Positions 8,520 to 17,481 of a stretch of 64,000 nucleotides of DNA are shown piece by piece. Below the pieces are notes generated by a model. That model was given only the letters and a program-made list of their open reading frames with translations. It was not told the DNA's origin and did not search any database. Numbering within the stretch: position 1 is the first letter of the stretch; the number at the start of each line of letters is the position of its first letter. Made by a program: the position numbers and the translations under genes. The DNA comes from Ignavibacteria bacterium. GTDB lineage: Bacteria; Bacteroidota; Ignavibacteria; Kapaibacteriales; UBA4661. The stretch covers positions 1-64,000 of the forward strand of contig JACVZY010000059.1 in the NCBI GenBank assembly GCA_014654705.1. The letters are read 5' to 3'.

Positions 8520-9761
8520 TCACGCTTTAGCCGCGACAGCATGAACGCCAACGGCAGCAGCAATAGCATCGGCAAGGTGATCAAGGGATTGTATTTCATC
8601 GGCGATACCTTCGTCCACAACTGCTTTTGGCATTCCATAGACCACACATGATTCCTCGTCTTGCGCAATCACATATCCGCCCTTCGCATTAAGCTTTTTC
8701 AGACCCGCTGAGCCATCACGCCCCATACCTGTCATAATCACACCGACGGCATGACCGCCAAAAGCATCTACAACTGACTCGGCAGTAATATCTACTGACG
8801 GACGATGAAGTGTTTCGGAAGGTTCGGGCGTAACGTGGATTGTGCGTTGGTCTTTGGCAATTTTCAAATGAAATCCTCCGGGAGCAATAAGAACAAGCCC
8901 CGGTTCCAAGACATCGCCTTCCTGCGCCTCGCGCACCGTAACGTGCGAAAGCGTGTTCAGACGGTCTGCAAGAGATTTAGTGAAATGGGCAGGCATATGC
9001 TGCACGATAAGCATACCGACAGGAAAATCCTTCGGCAGACGAGGTACTACTTGATGCAAAGCAAGTGGTCCGCCGGTAGAGACACCTAGGACGACAACTT
9101 TTGCGTGTCCGGGCGAAGGACGTTTTCTTCCAGTAAGGCGCACTTCATGTAATTGCTTGGGTTGTGAGGGTGCCGCACCAGCTGGCGTAGGCGAATCGCT
9201 TCCACCATCTTGCATGGATTGTTGACGACGACGTGCAATACGTTCTTGCAGGGAGAGACGCTCGGTAGAATCATCGGGTTTTGCCGGAGAACCGACCAGC
9301 GAAGAGGATTTACGAAATCCTAATCCGCCAAGCAAAGACGGACGGCTCAGTCGCGACTTCACTCCGACGCTTTGGGTAATTGCCTTGACCTTGCCGACAA
9401 GCTCATCACGCATTGTTTGCTGAATGGTCAGCGTCGATTGCTTTGAGATAAAATCGACTGCTCCTAAGGAAAGGGCGTCTATTGTTGCTTCCGCACCTTC
9501 TGTCGTAATACTACTGACCATGAGGACAGGGGTGGGGTTCTGCTCCATAATTATTCTCAATGCTTCCAAGCCGTTCATGATGGGCATTTCTACGTCCATC
9601 GTTACAATATCCGGCTTGAGTTCGGCAACTTTTTCGACTGCTTCCTTACCGTTGTTGGCAAGTCCGACAATTTCAATGTCCGGCTCACTTTGAAGCATTG
9701 TAGAGAGTGCCTTACGCACAAATGCTGAATCGTCAACAATTAAAACCCGTATTGGTTTCAT
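8520..9761 (-). CDS. cheB: Chemotaxis protein-glutamate methylesterase/glutaminase CheB
   Basis: Removes methyl groups from chemoreceptor glutamates and is activated by phosphorylation from CheA. The N-terminal receiver (about 1-120) starts KPIRVLIVDDSAFVRKAL and has the phospho-acceptor Asp in VTMDVEMP. A charged, proline-containing linker follows. The C-terminal esterase domain (about 220-405) shows the catalytic serine in GVSTGGP, histidine in QHMPAHF and aspartate in GMGRDG. The frame is open 15 codons further upstream to 9806, but the ATG at 9761 aligns with the conserved start of the receiver and gives 413 residues. It is the last gene of the chemotaxis run, 33-79 bases after cheA. Confidence 0.95.
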   Translation of the reverse strand: MKPIRVLIVDDSAFVRKALSTMLQSEPDIEIVGLANNGKEAVEKVAELKPDIVTMDVEMPIMNGLEALRIIMEQNPTPVLMVSSITTEGAEATIDALSLGAVDFISKQSTLTIQQTMRDELVGKVKAITQSVGVKSRLSRPSLLGGLGFRKSSSLVGSPAKPDDSTERLSLQERIARRRQQSMQDGGSDSPTPAGAAPSQPKQLHEVRLTGRKRPSPGHAKVVVLGVSTGGPLALHQVVPRLPKDFPVGMLIVQHMPAHFTKSLADRLNTLSHVTVREAQEGDVLEPGLVLIAPGGFHLKIAKDQRTIHVTPEPSETLHRPSVDITAESVVDAFGGHAVGVIMTGMGRDGSAGLKKLNAKGGYVIAQDEESCVVYGMPKAVVDEGIADEIQSLDHLADAIAAAVGVHAVAAKA

Positions 9762-9839
9762 GATAATTTGATAGTAAAATCTTCTCTCATTTGTCAAATC
9801 AATCAAGGAGAAAGCACTTGATTGCTCGTTTTCAGGAAA

Positions 9840-11909
9840 TTATCCTTGTTGCTGCCATACCGAGGCAGTAATAGTGTGTGCTGCTTGGATAAGCTCTTCA
9901 ATATCCAGAATCATAATTACTCGCCCGTCACCCAAAATAGTGGAACCGGACATACCGCGAATATGACCAAGGTACTCGCCAAGCGATTTAATGACAATCT
10001 CCTTCTGCCCCAGTAGTTCATCCACTACCAAGCCAAGGCGCTTATCTGCAAGCCCGACAACAACAACATAGCGGTTCTCAAGCGTGTCATCGGCTGGGGC
10101 TTTGTTCGCTTTGTCTGCATCTGCTACAGGGGTGTTCAGGACTTTATCCATCCGAATAAGTGGGAACACCTGATTACGGATACGGATAACTTCGTTTTGA
10201 TTGACACTGTAAATTTGGTTTAAGTCGGTATTGACTACCTCCACGACAGCACTGAGCGGCAATGCGTAGATTTCTGAGTGAACCCGTACTAGCAAGCCTT
10301 GGATAATTGCTAGGGTGAGCGGTAGTTTAATGGTAAAGGTTGTACCGGCACCAATTTTGGAATCAACTTCAATAATTCCTTTTAACTTTTGGATATTGGT
10401 ACGTACAACGTCCATGCCCACGCCGCGACCAGAAACACTGGTTACTTTCTCGGCGGTACTGAAACCGGGCATAAAAATAAGGCTAAAGGCATCTCTATCG
10501 GTCATCGTCTGGAGCTGCTCATTTGTAATCAAGCCCTTTTCTAATGCCTTGCGCTTGAGCATCTCAGGGTCAATACCCTTACCGTCGTCAATAATACTCA
10601 CGACAATATGATTACCTTCATGTTGCGCATCCAGAATCAGCGTACCTTTATTATTTTTTCCGGTTTTTTCTCGTTCACCCGGATGCTCAATGCCATGATC
10701 ACATGAATTACGAATCATGTGCACGAGCGGGTCGTTCAGTTCTTCGATAATACCTCGGTCAAGCTCGGTTTCTTCGCCACGCAAGACAAGTTCAATATCT
10801 TTACCAAATTCTTTAGAAAGGTCGCGAACAATACGTGGTGCTTTTTGAAAAATCTTAGAAATCGGCACCATCCGAGTTTTCATAATTGCCGATTGCAATT
10901 CTGTCGTAATGAAGTCTATTGTAGAACTGGTCTCTTGCAACTCACGCAAAAAGTCGTGGTTTTCATAGCGTTGCATAAGCTCTTGAGTTACCTGAGCGAG
11001 ACGGTTACGACCAAGTACCAACTCACCCGACAAATCCATAAGAGTTTCTAAGCGATTGACATCAACGCGAATGGTTGTCTCTGTTGCTGCGGCGACTGCC
11101 TTCTTGTCGTCCGGCGCGGGAGCATCTTTCGCTATGGGTGCTGCTGGCGGGGCTTTCTTAGCAGCTATCGGTTCGGCTGCTTTTGGGGCAACGGAAGCAG
11201 GGGCAGTAACGATAGGTTCTGGCTGTTTTGCTGATTCGGGTGCAGAAGTCACAGGAGGCGTTACTACAGCAGATGCGGTATCATTTGCCGCAGCCGGAGC
11301 AGATGGTTGCATCGCTTGGTTAATTTCAGCAAAAGCGTTTGCAATCATCAAAAGCTCATCGTCAGTAAAGTAGTCGCCCTGAGTACCAAAGGATTTGTCG
11401 TTTAGAATATTGTCCACAAGCGTTGGCGAACCCGCCGAAGGTGCTGCTGCGGGAGTTGTTGTCGGTGCAGCGGCAGGTGCTGATACGCTCGTGGCAGTTT
11501 TAGGGGCTGCATCGGGGTGCCCAATTTTCGTGAGTTTCTCCATTGTTTTGGAGTAATCTACCGGCTCAAGATCGGCGGCTTGTGCCTTTTTGAGAAGCAT
11601 TTTTAGCCAATCGTACACTTCCAAAAGTGCATCAACAATTTCAGCATTAACCTTGAGCTCAGCCTTGCGGAGTTTGTTGAGAATATCCTCGGCGTGGTGT
11701 GTAATCTCCGTTATCTGCTCAAACCCCATGAAGGACGACGTTCCTTTAATGGTGTGAAAACTGCGAAAAACGGAGTTCAGCAGATCAAAGTTTTCCGCTT
11801 GTGACTCCAATTGCATCAAGTCTTGGTCGAGGGTATCGAGAATTTCTTGAGTTTCAATAAGAAAACTGTCAAGAAGTTCCTTCATTTCGTTATCGAGAGC
11901 GCCTGACAT
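9840..11909 (-). CDS. cheA: Chemotaxis histidine kinase CheA
   Basis: The receptor-coupled kinase that phosphorylates CheY and CheB. The P1 Hpt domain (1-110) has the phosphorylated His52 in FRSFHTIKGTSS. Residues about 130-285 are an alanine/proline-rich linker with one short helical, acidic segment at about 163-203; no ordinary P2 CheY-binding domain is evident. Dimerisation (P3) and kinase (P4) domains follow, with the N box IRNSCDHGIEH, DDGKGIDP and GRGVGMDVV. The C-terminal P5 domain is CheW-like. The 689-residue length is typical. It is preceded by the CheZ-like gene (88-base gap) and followed by cheB on the same strand. No chemoreceptor gene is in the window. Confidence 0.96.
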   Translation of the reverse strand: MSGALDNEMKELLDSFLIETQEILDTLDQDLMQLESQAENFDLLNSVFRSFHTIKGTSSFMGFEQITEITHHAEDILNKLRKAELKVNAEIVDALLEVYDWLKMLLKKAQAADLEPVDYSKTMEKLTKIGHPDAAPKTATSVSAPAAAPTTTPAAAPSAGSPTLVDNILNDKSFGTQGDYFTDDELLMIANAFAEINQAMQPSAPAAANDTASAVVTPPVTSAPESAKQPEPIVTAPASVAPKAAEPIAAKKAPPAAPIAKDAPAPDDKKAVAAATETTIRVDVNRLETLMDLSGELVLGRNRLAQVTQELMQRYENHDFLRELQETSSTIDFITTELQSAIMKTRMVPISKIFQKAPRIVRDLSKEFGKDIELVLRGEETELDRGIIEELNDPLVHMIRNSCDHGIEHPGEREKTGKNNKGTLILDAQHEGNHIVVSIIDDGKGIDPEMLKRKALEKGLITNEQLQTMTDRDAFSLIFMPGFSTAEKVTSVSGRGVGMDVVRTNIQKLKGIIEVDSKIGAGTTFTIKLPLTLAIIQGLLVRVHSEIYALPLSAVVEVVNTDLNQIYSVNQNEVIRIRNQVFPLIRMDKVLNTPVADADKANKAPADDTLENRYVVVVGLADKRLGLVVDELLGQKEIVIKSLGEYLGHIRGMSGSTILGDGRVIMILDIEELIQAAHTITASVWQQQG

Positions 11910-11997: not shown

Positions 11998-13119
11998 TTA
12001 TTTGAACAATGCATCAATATCATCCTGCGATGCCGCCTCATTAGCTTTGCCTCCGCCGAAAAGTGCGTCGATATCATCTTGCGAAGCAGGGTCAACAGAC
12101 GGCGTTGGTGTGCTGGATGGCGCAGCGCTTGGCGAAGGCGTTTGGGCAGAATTTATCTGGCTTAGAAGTGCGTCAATATCATTTTGTGATGAAATGCCCC
12201 TTGGTGAGGGTGCTGAAGCAAGTGCTGAAGCGCCACCACCATCGTGAAACGACGCGAGAATAGAATCTACGTCATTTTGACGATTGGGGTCGCCGGAAAG
12301 TGCAGAGCCGACATCAGAGTCATATGCAATGGCTCGGTGTAGCGACGAAACTTGCGTAGCATGAGTTTCTTCCTGTATCGGGCGGCGGGTAGAGGCGGTG
12401 ATAAGTTCACCAATTTCCGTATTACGGAAATGCACCATAATCTCGCCGAGCTTGTTCTGTACAGTTTGAAGCAAACTATTGACAGCCGCAAGCTGCTGAG
12501 AAGTAATATCTTGGACTTGCAGAGACATCATAATCTGTGTAGAGTCCATGCGAATACTTTCGAGAAGTTTTTCGGAATTATTCACTAACTCTTCTGAAAC
12601 TTCAGGCTTTTGCAGTACTGCTACGGCAGATTTGATATTATCCACATAGTGTGCTGAGGAGTGGCCGCCTTCGCGGTTTTCGATTTTCCGAATCACGTCA
12701 ATGATACGTGAGTACACAGAATCTTTCTCTTCCGTTGCTATGGTTTCATTTCTTTGAAGCTCATTCACGGCTTCAATAATCTTTTCGTGCTCGGAACGGT
12801 TTTGGCGCTGCATCTGGATAAGTTGCTTCATGTTTGAACTTATCACATCAGCTTTGTAACTCAGACCATCAAGCGTATCCAATATTTCAGTCGTCGCAAG
12901 TTCCGTAGCTTTCGTTACCGAAGAGAGTTGCTGTGCCGCCTTGGGCATCTTGGAGAGATTTTCTTCAATAGAAGCATTGATATTCTCCAGCAACGGCGTT
13001 ACCTCCCTGATAAAAAGGAATACCTCTTCTAAAAAAGGGATGACGCGCTGTCCGAACACAAAGAGTGCTTTTAGCTCTTCGGTTTTGTGCAGCATTTCAT
13101 TAATTTCACCTACACGCAT
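11998..13119 (-). CDS. cheZ: CheZ-like CheY-phosphate phosphatase with four FliM-like C-terminal peptides
   Basis: Predicted to dephosphorylate CheY-P. Residues 1-240 are almost wholly helical, as in CheZ. They contain LQVQDITSQQL at 200-210, matching the CheZ catalytic motif D-x-x-x-Q (here D204 and Q208; D143 and Q147 in E. coli CheZ). The protein is 373 residues against about 214 in E. coli, because residues 245-373 form a disordered Pro/Ser/Ala tail. This tail has four copies of a short peptide like the FliM N-terminus: QNDVDSILA, QNDIDALLS, QDDIDALF and QDDIDALF. In FliM that motif binds CheY-P. The gene lies between cheY and cheA. Catalytic role is inferred; the motif copies are plain in the sequence. 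Confidence 0.8.
   Translation of the reverse strand: MRVGEINEMLHKTEELKALFVFGQRVIPFLEEVFLFIREVTPLLENINASIEENLSKMPKAAQQLSSVTKATELATTEILDTLDGLSYKADVISSNMKQLIQMQRQNRSEHEKIIEAVNELQRNETIATEEKDSVYSRIIDVIRKIENREGGHSSAHYVDNIKSAVAVLQKPEVSEELVNNSEKLLESIRMDSTQIMMSLQVQDITSQQLAAVNSLLQTVQNKLGEIMVHFRNTEIGELITASTRRPIQEETHATQVSSLHRAIAYDSDVGSALSGDPNRQNDVDSILASFHDGGGASALASAPSPRGISSQNDIDALLSQINSAQTPSPSAAPSSTPTPSVDPASQDDIDALFGGGKANEAASQDDIDALFK
12001..12279 (-). repeat. Four FliM-type (Q-[ND]-D-[IV]-D-[AS]-[LI]-[LF]) peptide repeats in the CheZ-like tail
   Basis: In the CheZ-like protein the peptides fall at residues 281-289, 312-320, 347-354 and 365-372, the last ending one residue before the stop. Spacing is uneven (31, 35 and 18 residues) and the linkers are Pro/Ser/Ala-rich. 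The FliM N-terminal CheY-binding peptide has the consensus SQ-[AD]-EIDALL. Confidence 0.75.
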
Positions 13120-13496: not shown

Positions 13497-13865
13497 TTAC
13501 GCATTTGGCACAATAGCCTGAATCTTTTCTTTGAGGACAGCCGGCGTAAACGGCTTTACAATGTAGTTATTCACTTTAGCTTGAAGCGCTTGCACAATAT
13601 CTTCTTTGATACCGCGCGTCGTGACCATCAGAACAGGAAGAGTACCAAAGGTCGCATCATTACGAATCGCTTTTGTTAATTCCAGACCGTTCATATTTGG
13701 CATATTCCAGTCCGTAATTACAAAATCAATTTTTTCCGTATAGAGAATTGCAAGCGCGTCTTGCCCGTCGCTCGCCTCAACCACATCATTGTAGCCAAAA
13801 CTGTGAAGCGCATTGATTACAATGCGGCGCATCGTTGGCGAGTCATCAACAACAAGAAATTTCAT
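13497..13865 (-). CDS. cheY: Chemotaxis response regulator CheY (copy 1)
   Basis: A single receiver domain of 122 residues with no output domain. Its phospho-acceptor is Asp52 in ITDWNMPNMNG, almost the same as the classical enterobacterial CheY segment. The acidic pair Asp7/Asp8, the switch threonines at 82-83 and Lys104 in IVKPF are all present. Phosphorylated by CheA, it would bind the flagellar switch or another motor and the FliM-like peptides of the CheZ-like protein. Of the two receivers here it is the better match to motor-binding CheY. It follows the second receiver gene by 104 bases on the same strand. Confidence 0.92.
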   Translation of the reverse strand: MKFLVVDDSPTMRRIVINALHSFGYNDVVEASDGQDALAILYTEKIDFVITDWNMPNMNGLELTKAIRNDATFGTLPVLMVTTRGIKEDIVQALQAKVNNYIVKPFTPAVLKEKIQAIVPNA

Positions 13866-13969: not shown

Positions 13970-14332
13970 TCAAATGTATTTTGATACCTCGTACTGAATC
14001 TTTTTCATATTGAACGGTTTAACGATATAAGAATTTGCCCCTGCTTGCATTCCGCGTTCAATATATTGCACGTCTGCCAAGGACGATAAGATAATTATTG
14101 GCAAATCGCTATACATCGGATTATCACGAATTGTTCGTACTAATTCAAAACCATCAACATTGGGCATATTTAGATCGGTAATTACCAAATCCACTTTTTC
14201 TTTAGGTAGAATCTCCAGCGCATCCATACCATCCACAGCCGAAATAACCCGGTAGCCACCAGATTTCAGCGACAATGCGATAAACTTTCGCACCGACATG
14301 GAATCATCCACTGTAAGAATTGTTTTTTTCAT
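13970..14332 (-). CDS. CheY-like single-domain response regulator (copy 2)
   Basis: A second stand-alone receiver of 120 residues. The phospho-acceptor is Asp53 in ITDLNMPNVDG, with Asp9/Asp10 for metal binding, Ser83/Ser84 at the switch position and Lys105 in IVKPF. It has TDLNMP where copy 1 has TDWNMP, a feature often seen in receivers acting as phosphate sinks or in non-motor branches, though this is only suggestive. It lies between cheR and cheY copy 1, on the same strand. One copy may compete for CheA phosphate or regulate a different target. Confidence 0.88.
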   Translation of the reverse strand: MKKTILTVDDSMSVRKFIALSLKSGGYRVISAVDGMDALEILPKEKVDLVITDLNMPNVDGFELVRTIRDNPMYSDLPIIILSSLADVQYIERGMQAGANSYIVKPFNMKKIQYEVSKYI

Positions 14333-14420: not shown

Positions 14421-15521
14421 TCACTCTTTTTTGTATGCAATGGTCTTTGGAAAATGAACAAGTTTGAATGCTTTCGATACGCCATGCAGGGACTCGGAAT
14501 AACCAATAAATAAATATCCCGTTTTATTCAGCGCGTCGTACAAATCGGCAACGACTTGCTGCTTGGCGATAGTATCGAAGTATATGAGGACATTACAGCA
14601 AAAAATCACATCAAACCCCGTCATCGTACGCATGGTAGGAGTATCATAGAGGTTGATGCACATGAATTTTACTTGGCTGCGTACTTCGGGCGTAAGGACG
14701 TATTTATCGCCCTCGCGGGTAAAATACTTGTTCAGATAATGCGCGGGCATGTTCCGAACAGAATACTCTTTGAACACCCCTGTACGGGCTTTTTCCAGTA
14801 CAGCCGTATTAATATCGCTACCAACAATTTCAAAAGTAAATCCCGGAAACTGTGGTTTGATGCGCTCCAGAATAAGCATAGACATCGTATAGGCTTCTTC
14901 GCCCGATGACGATGCCGCACTCCAAATACGGAGCTTTTTATTACCCTGCGCCTGTTTTGCTTTCAAAATTTCCGGTAGAATAACTTGCTCTAACGCCTCG
15001 AACTGTGGTGGATTGCGAAAGAAATATGTCTCGTTAATTGTTACCACCTCAAAGAGGCTTGGTAACTCTTCTCGTGCTGCTGCCGAGGTTGAAATAAGAC
15101 GAAAATACTCATCGAAGGTCGAAAGATTATGCGCTTCAAGGCGTTTTGCAATGCGCCCCTCAAGCAGATATTTTTTGTTCTCGGTAAAAGAAATTCCACA
15201 CTGCTCATAAATAAAATCCCTGAACCGCTTAAACATTGCCTCATCCATCTTCGGCGCATTACTATTGTCAAGGTTTAACAGCGACGGCGGGATAAAAATC
15301 TGCCCCAATTGGCTTTTATCGAATGTGCTCCCGGCTCGTACTGCGTTCCCATCTGCTGTCCCAGGTACCGTCCCGGCAGTGCCGGGTGGCAACGCAGACG
15401 CACCAGTACCCGATTCTGAAGAATCCGGCTGCGGGGCGGAAGGACGATGATTTGTACCTCCCTGTCCAAAACGAAATTTATCGAACAAGTCTGATGCCAT
15501 GGTGGTGTAATGCGTGAACAA
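14421..15521 (-). CDS. cheR: Chemoreceptor glutamate methyltransferase CheR
   Basis: Methylates receptor glutamates with S-adenosylmethionine, opposing CheB. The helical CheR-N domain starts near residue 92 (MDEAMFKRFRDFIYEQCG) and the SAM-binding domain follows, with LRIWSAASSSGEEAYT and later FDVIFCCNVLIYFD. At 366 residues it is longer than E. coli CheR (286) because of an N-terminal extension of about 90 residues rich in Gly, Pro, Ala and Ser. Two ATG codons are possible, at 15521 and 15500; the second begins MASDLFDKFRFG, and neither has a clear ribosome site. It follows the HEAT-repeat gene by 22 bases, so the two are probably one operon. Confidence 0.92.
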   Translation of the reverse strand: MFTHYTTMASDLFDKFRFGQGGTNHRPSAPQPDSSESGTGASALPPGTAGTVPGTADGNAVRAGSTFDKSQLGQIFIPPSLLNLDNSNAPKMDEAMFKRFRDFIYEQCGISFTENKKYLLEGRIAKRLEAHNLSTFDEYFRLISTSAAAREELPSLFEVVTINETYFFRNPPQFEALEQVILPEILKAKQAQGNKKLRIWSAASSSGEEAYTMSMLILERIKPQFPGFTFEIVGSDINTAVLEKARTGVFKEYSVRNMPAHYLNKYFTREGDKYVLTPEVRSQVKFMCINLYDTPTMRTMTGFDVIFCCNVLIYFDTIAKQQVVADLYDALNKTGYLFIGYSESLHGVSKAFKLVHFPKTIAYKKE

Positions 15522-16986: not shown

Positions 16987-17481
16987 TTAAAGCGCCTGCA
17001 GCTCTGCTGATGAGAGAGCTTTCTCAAGGTTGAGCAGAATAAGAAGGCGGTCATCCATTTTGCCCACTCCTTCGATATAGTCAGAGCTAATGCCGGCTAC
17101 GATTGGCGGTGGTGGGTCAACCACACTTTGGGGAATCCGCAGCACTTCCCGCACTGAATCTACGATAAAGCCGACCGTCTTGGAGAGAATCTCAACGACG
17201 ATAATGCGCGTGTTTTTGTCATGTTGTGATGGCGGCATTCCAAAACGCTTCCGTAGGTCAACAATCGGTATCACCTTGCCGCGCAAGTTAATTACGCCTT
17301 CAATAAAATGCGGTGAATTCGGTACGCGCGTCACCGATGTAGTGCGGTTAATCTCCTGTACTCGGAGAATATCAATACCAAATTCTTCTTTGCCTAACGT
17401 GAAACTAACGAGCTGCAGCACTTCTTCGCTGCTGCTGCCCTGCTCACGTTTGTCGGTGCTTTTGTCAAAAGCTGTTTGCAT
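16987..17481 (-). CDS. cheW: Chemotaxis adaptor protein CheW
   Basis: Couples CheA to chemoreceptors. The 164-residue protein is one CheW (SH3-like double barrel) domain, with LVSFTLGKEEFGIDILRVQEI near residues 25-45, an IEGVINLRGKVIPIVDLRKRF block, and IPQSVVDPPPP near 117-127. The first 20 or so residues are charged and Ser-rich. It is flanked by the sigma-54 regulator upstream (137-base gap) and the HEAT-repeat gene downstream (147-base gap), all on the minus strand. It is the only CheW in the window apart from the CheA P5 domain. Confidence 0.94.
   Translation of the reverse strand: MQTAFDKSTDKREQGSSSEEVLQLVSFTLGKEEFGIDILRVQEINRTTSVTRVPNSPHFIEGVINLRGKVIPIVDLRKRFGMPPSQHDKNTRIIVVEILSKTVGFIVDSVREVLRIPQSVVDPPPPIVAGISSDYIEGVGKMDDRLLILLNLEKALSSAELQAL

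Follow-up and report, generated by a model that had tools for sequence, protein, structure and literature searches.

A remote CheZ-like protein with a multiplied tail of CheY-binding-type peptides in an Ignavibacteria lineage without detected FliM

The cheZ-like gene and its chemotaxis cluster

We identified in a 64,000-nucleotide stretch of an Ignavibacteria genome (the window; GenBank assembly GCA_014654705.1, contig JACVZY010000059.1) a gene for a CheZ-like protein that lies among other chemotaxis genes (Table 1). The cluster runs in the order NtrC-type regulator, cheW, a HEAT-repeat gene, cheR, a lone receiver (RR2), cheY, cheZ, cheA and cheB, and the order cheR-RR2-cheY-cheZ-cheA is kept in relatives. 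The assembly (5.72 Mb, 99% complete) has Candidatus Kapaibacterium MAGs as its nearest named relatives. The adjacent CheY, the likely partner of CheZ, is 98-100% identical among close relatives and retains K92, I95, Y106, V108, K109, F111, T112, L116 and K119 (E. coli numbering), which we take to be the residues of the peptide-binding face.

Table 1. Coordinates of the cheZ-like gene, its parts and neighbors (window positions), and of peptide arrays at other loci (prefix L)
Feature	Coordinates	Strand	Basis or remark
cheZ-like gene, 373 aa	11998..13119	-	ORF; PF04344 30.9 bits; PDB profile match 1kmi_Z
Catalytic helix, residues 173-233, D204 and Q208 (QDITSQ)	12421..12603	-	Relatives' alignment; structure model; QDLTGQ of E. 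coli CheZ
Linker element, residues 260-289	12253-12342		Contains copy 1
Peptide-like copy 1, QNDVDSIL, residues 281-288	12256..12279	-	Family-conserved RQxxVDxI element, probably another motif
CheY-binding-type peptide QNDIDALL, residues 312-319	12163..12186	-	Conservation 0.84
CheY-binding-type peptide QDDIDALF, residues 347-354	12058..12081	-	Conservation 0.91
Terminal CheY-binding-type peptide QDDIDALF, residues 365-372	12004..12027	-	Conservation 1.00 within lineage
CheY, likely CheZ partner	13497..13865	-	PRK10610 CheY 148 bits; E. coli peptide-binding face kept
Second single-domain response regulator	13970..14332	-	Face residues T112, L116, K119 missing
CheA kinase	9840..11909	-	Adjoins cheZ in nearly all relatives (synteny); product from sequence
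CheB	8520..9806	-	Synteny; product from sequence
CheR	14421..15521	-	Synteny; product from sequence
CheW	16987..17481	-	Synteny; product from sequence
Zinc-ribbon loci with peptide arrays	L039:4764-6026, L031:4764-5912, L029:4731-5921, L032:4452-6713		PF13717
DUF2497 loci	L046:4609-5361, L043:4770-5522		PopZ-like

A Pfam scan assigned the protein to the CheZ family by a narrow margin over the cut-off (30.7 bits; E 3.2e-7), and the gene was not listed by a six-frame CheZ search of the genome. The scores against the NCBIfam CheZ equivalogs PRK11166.1 and NF041271 (16.3 of 257 and 10.1 of 350 bits, respectively) did not reach their cut-offs, so the protein lacks orthologue status in the narrow sense. 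The top PDB match of a profile of 24 relatives was E. coli CheZ, in two collinear segments (E 0.012), and this alignment placed QDITSQ on the QDLTGQ of 1kmi_Z with the catalytic pair superposed. D204 and Q208 lie within LQVQDITSQQ and are invariant across the 24 relatives, which bears out the catalytic D-x-x-x-Q motif named in a preliminary description of this DNA. Its proposal of a CheZ-like phosphatase with several CheY-binding-type peptides is likewise supported. Against alphaproteobacterial CheZ the profile reached 99.1% probability (E 9e-19), a score to which the repeats contribute. The residues preceding the catalytic pair read SLQVQ here and ALQFQ in Neomarinimicrobiota relatives; the AxxF(Y)Q motif before D-x-x-x-Q has been described for Proteobacteria only (PMC7750401). 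An AlphaFold model, too weak to settle the fold (pTM 0.38), contains long helices at residues 2-124 and 173-233, and its fold comparison returned generic long-helix matches, with no CheZ chain among the matches listed.

Composition and conservation of the tail

The pattern Q-x-D-[IV]-D-x-[LI]-[LF] occurs four times in the tail, as QNDVDSIL (residue 281), QNDIDALL (312) and QDDIDALF (347 and 365), and nowhere in the protein outside residues 235-373. In 100,000 shuffles of these residues the mean was 0.00049 matches and the maximum 1. The AlphaFold model gives this tail low confidence (pLDDT <50 at residues 239-257, 294-314, 323-346 and 353-361) and places short helices in it at 278-292, 313-322 and 365-371. 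Thus, four non-random pattern matches in a disordered-looking tail, as initially described, were recovered, and their equivalence had to be given up for copy 1. This copy falls within a linker element, LHRxIAFDPDAV...RQxxVDxI, an older element whose general form (FDxxA...RQxx[AV]Dx[IVL]) is kept even in relatives without the terminal peptide, and its third position is not reliably acidic (D, S, A or Q in close relatives). Because copy 1 belongs to a separate element and lacks a conserved acidic position, we count three near-consensus peptides and one look-alike. Copy 1 resembles the QDQVDDLL of E. coli, so that it may also have a CheY-binding role.

The three near-consensus peptides are more conserved within the lineage than the linkers (0.45, 0.42 and 0.57), which differ in both sequence and length, and the terminal SQDDIDALF (residues 364-372) is near-invariant among relatives. 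The copies differ in codon use and are therefore not the product of a recent duplication. As conserved islands written in different codons within variable linkers, the peptides point to selection rather than recent slippage.

The tail had been read as a FliM feature foreign to CheZ and as a mimic of the motor switch. E. coli CheZ itself ends in a like peptide: residues 200-214 are ASQDQVDDLLDSLGF (chain 1kmi_Z; residues 176-214 confirmed from PDB), and SQDDIDALF agrees with ASQDQVDDLL of this chain in position and pattern at the sequence level. Hence, a canonical part of CheZ has been amplified here, rather than a FliM trait borrowed. The C-terminal peptide of CheZ and the N-terminus of FliM use the same face of CheY. 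They share a short pattern, and the FliM of a related genome (G009) starts with MNDILSQNEIDNILSGM, so the shared pattern is valid in this group too. The FliM peptide is, however, N-terminal, whereas the CheZ peptide here is C-terminal and repeated, in a protein that gave no match to the FliM domain PF02154 in the Pfam scan. The CheZ C-terminus was named a CheY-binding domain in 1996 (Blat and Eisenbach, PMID 8639527, as relayed by PMC7750401), and Azorhizobium keeps this domain (PMC7750401). Most of the affinity of CheZ for CheY-P has been assigned to a short helix at its C-terminus, which a flexible tether holds (PMC1447658). E. coli CheZ (PDB 1KMI) thus shares with our protein the D-x-x-x-Q motif in a long helix, the flexible linker and the C-terminal peptide (SQxxVDxLL), but it carries one peptide in 214 residues instead of three in 373, identity is low, and E. 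coli possesses the FliM that this genome lacks.

We consider it probable that the protein is a true, if distant, CheZ, that it acts as the phosphatase of the adjacent CheY, and that its multivalent tail raises the local amount of CheY-P. D204 and Q208 would be offered to CheY-P on a helical hairpin, and the disordered tail would hold three near-consensus versions of the CheY-P-binding helix that is canonical at the C-terminus of CheZ, beside the older RQxxVDxI element. Serving as several tethers, the copies would catch CheY-P via its alpha4-beta5-alpha5 face, concentrate it around the pair of active sites in a CheZ dimer and hand it on to them. The lifetime of CheY-P would be shortened; the simplest account would be the E. 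coli scheme at higher valency. Homology, the motif, peptide conservation, the face of the partner and the gene neighborhood form the basis of this mechanism. Phosphatase activity and the dimer are predictions, and the peptides would be expected to bind CheY, with a putative gain from the extra copies. Alternatively, the tail could act as a multivalent scaffold in which CheY-P bound to the tail of one dimer engages the active site of a second dimer, creating a network or cluster with cooperative or localised phosphatase activity. Bridging of this kind was proposed for the E. coli protein, each chain of which has a single peptide (PMC1447658); three peptides would strengthen it, and the long low-complexity linkers are compatible with it. 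Oligomerisation of CheZ in E. coli, however, is stated not to have been supported by subsequent experiments in vitro and in vivo (PMC2673030), and we regard a scaffold as rather unlikely.

CheZ tails and FliM across relatives

All 9 CheZ-bearing genomes searched in the family (eight of the genus plus G001) encode exactly three copies of the ID type. In the class-wide set, CheZ proteins carry 0-4 copies: most relatives carry a single terminal SQ[DE]EID[KR]LF, others lack the peptide altogether, and the range within this order is 1-4. The extra copies are not a result of flagellum loss, as two flagellated, FliM-positive relatives have four (G015) and three (G113). One flagellated relative encodes a second CheZ paralogue (L100; G107:C74:33509-34447) with extra peptides ending in DDIDALFAN. 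In another family of the class (f9), four genomes without FliM (G042, G187, G198 and G098; L096-L099) carry two adjacent cheZ-like genes, none with a terminal CheY-binding-type peptide.

Tails with several copies occur repeatedly, in Kapaibacteria as well as in the CheZ of Alphaproteobacteria. The proteins of Asticcacaulis, Terasakiella, Kordiimonas and Ponticaulis also match PF04344 and carry, in a tail that is disordered, 2-5 peptides of the QDDIDALF type; those scanned exceed the Pfam cut-off, with scores of up to 50 bits. They differ in the reported AxxFQ motif, which is [SA]xxVQ here. As far as tested, common descent with our CheZ holds for the core only, and the extra copies, judged without a tree, look independently gained in the two groups. 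Across CheZ homologues the copy number is therefore unusual without being unique. The preliminary description had known of no CheZ with such a tail; a single peptide is in fact established for the family, and in the open-access literature, covered in part, we found neither a description of a multi-peptide CheZ nor a paper with the tail peptide strings. The novelty that is left lies in the multiplication of the tail, in a recurrence in Alphaproteobacteria that looks independent, and in the retention of such a tail by a lineage that lacks FliM.

Genome searches found neither FliM nor FliG in this genome, in the other genomes of the genus or in G001, and the search of this genome for PilB/PilT-type ATPases gave two sub-threshold matches and nothing more. 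The genome encodes 47 chemoreceptor signalling domains and a 2541-aa SprA-like ORF. Among 197 genomes of the class (raw counts, kin included), 56 have both CheZ and FliM, 11 CheZ only, 11 FliM only and 119 neither. Co-occurrence of the two is thus strong, and the lineage studied is one of the exceptions, with CheZ and no switch. Other families of the order have FliM, which makes its loss in this lineage the likelier event, as judged without a tree. Since the genome lacks FliM, a "motor switch" here would have to be something other than the FliM C-ring, and the mimicry once suggested for the tail is not supported.

A relaxed pattern gave two matches outside cheZ in the genome, neither convincing as a second motif protein, although more divergent peptides could escape it: one lies inside a CysN-like GTPase, and the other sits immediately behind a signal peptide in a TPR sensor kinase, so that both are doubtful as cytoplasmic CheY sites. 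CheZ could therefore hold most such sites, and the extra peptides might form a CheY-P sink that competes with some effector instead of aiding catalysis; from CheY-FliM structures, effectors use the same CheY face. The terminal copy, however, occupies the position of the catalytic tether in CheZ, and the catalytic residues are invariant, so we hold a sink to be improbable. That the tail array is the main CheY-P docking platform of the FliM-less lineage, with CheZ as both off-switch and effector that would steer gliding or another non-flagellar output, for example, by binding CheY-P multivalently, is a long shot.

Peptide arrays outside CheZ and outlook

The assumption that every tblastn match was a CheZ proved wrong, as zinc-ribbon proteins accounted for several matches with 5-7 copies and DUF2497 proteins for two matches with 2 copies. 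The zinc-ribbon proteins come from Cohaesibacter relatives and a Nitrospinota MAG and carry QDDIDALF-type peptides, which in L039 form near-perfect tandem repeats. Because these carriers are not CheZ, the array is a portable module. The DUF2497 proteins of Magnetospirillum and Methylopila, PopZ-like with the N-terminus MEDILASIRRIL, have two QDDIDALF peptides in a disordered-looking middle region, a possible polar docking site for CheY. From such arrays in non-CheZ proteins it follows that CheY may not be what the peptide binds in every setting. It is very improbable, even so, that the CheZ tail serves localisation by binding a non-CheY partner such as a polar or cytoskeletal protein, because CheZ presence tracks FliM across the class and hence the chemotaxis pathway, the adjacent CheY retains its binding face, and the N-terminal and bundle regions of Azorhizobium CheZ are enough for polar localisation (PMC7750401).

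With a multivalent tether on a remote CheZ as the preferred reading, CheZ proteins with one, three and up to five peptides are natural variants with which to ask whether the kinetics of the phosphatase depend on the valency of the tether. The interest of the lineage lies mainly in its retention of CheA, CheY, CheZ and 47 receptor domains, where searches recovered neither FliM and FliG nor ATPases of the pilus type. The peptide offers a handle on this pathway, as any protein that binds the same face of CheY would be a candidate output.
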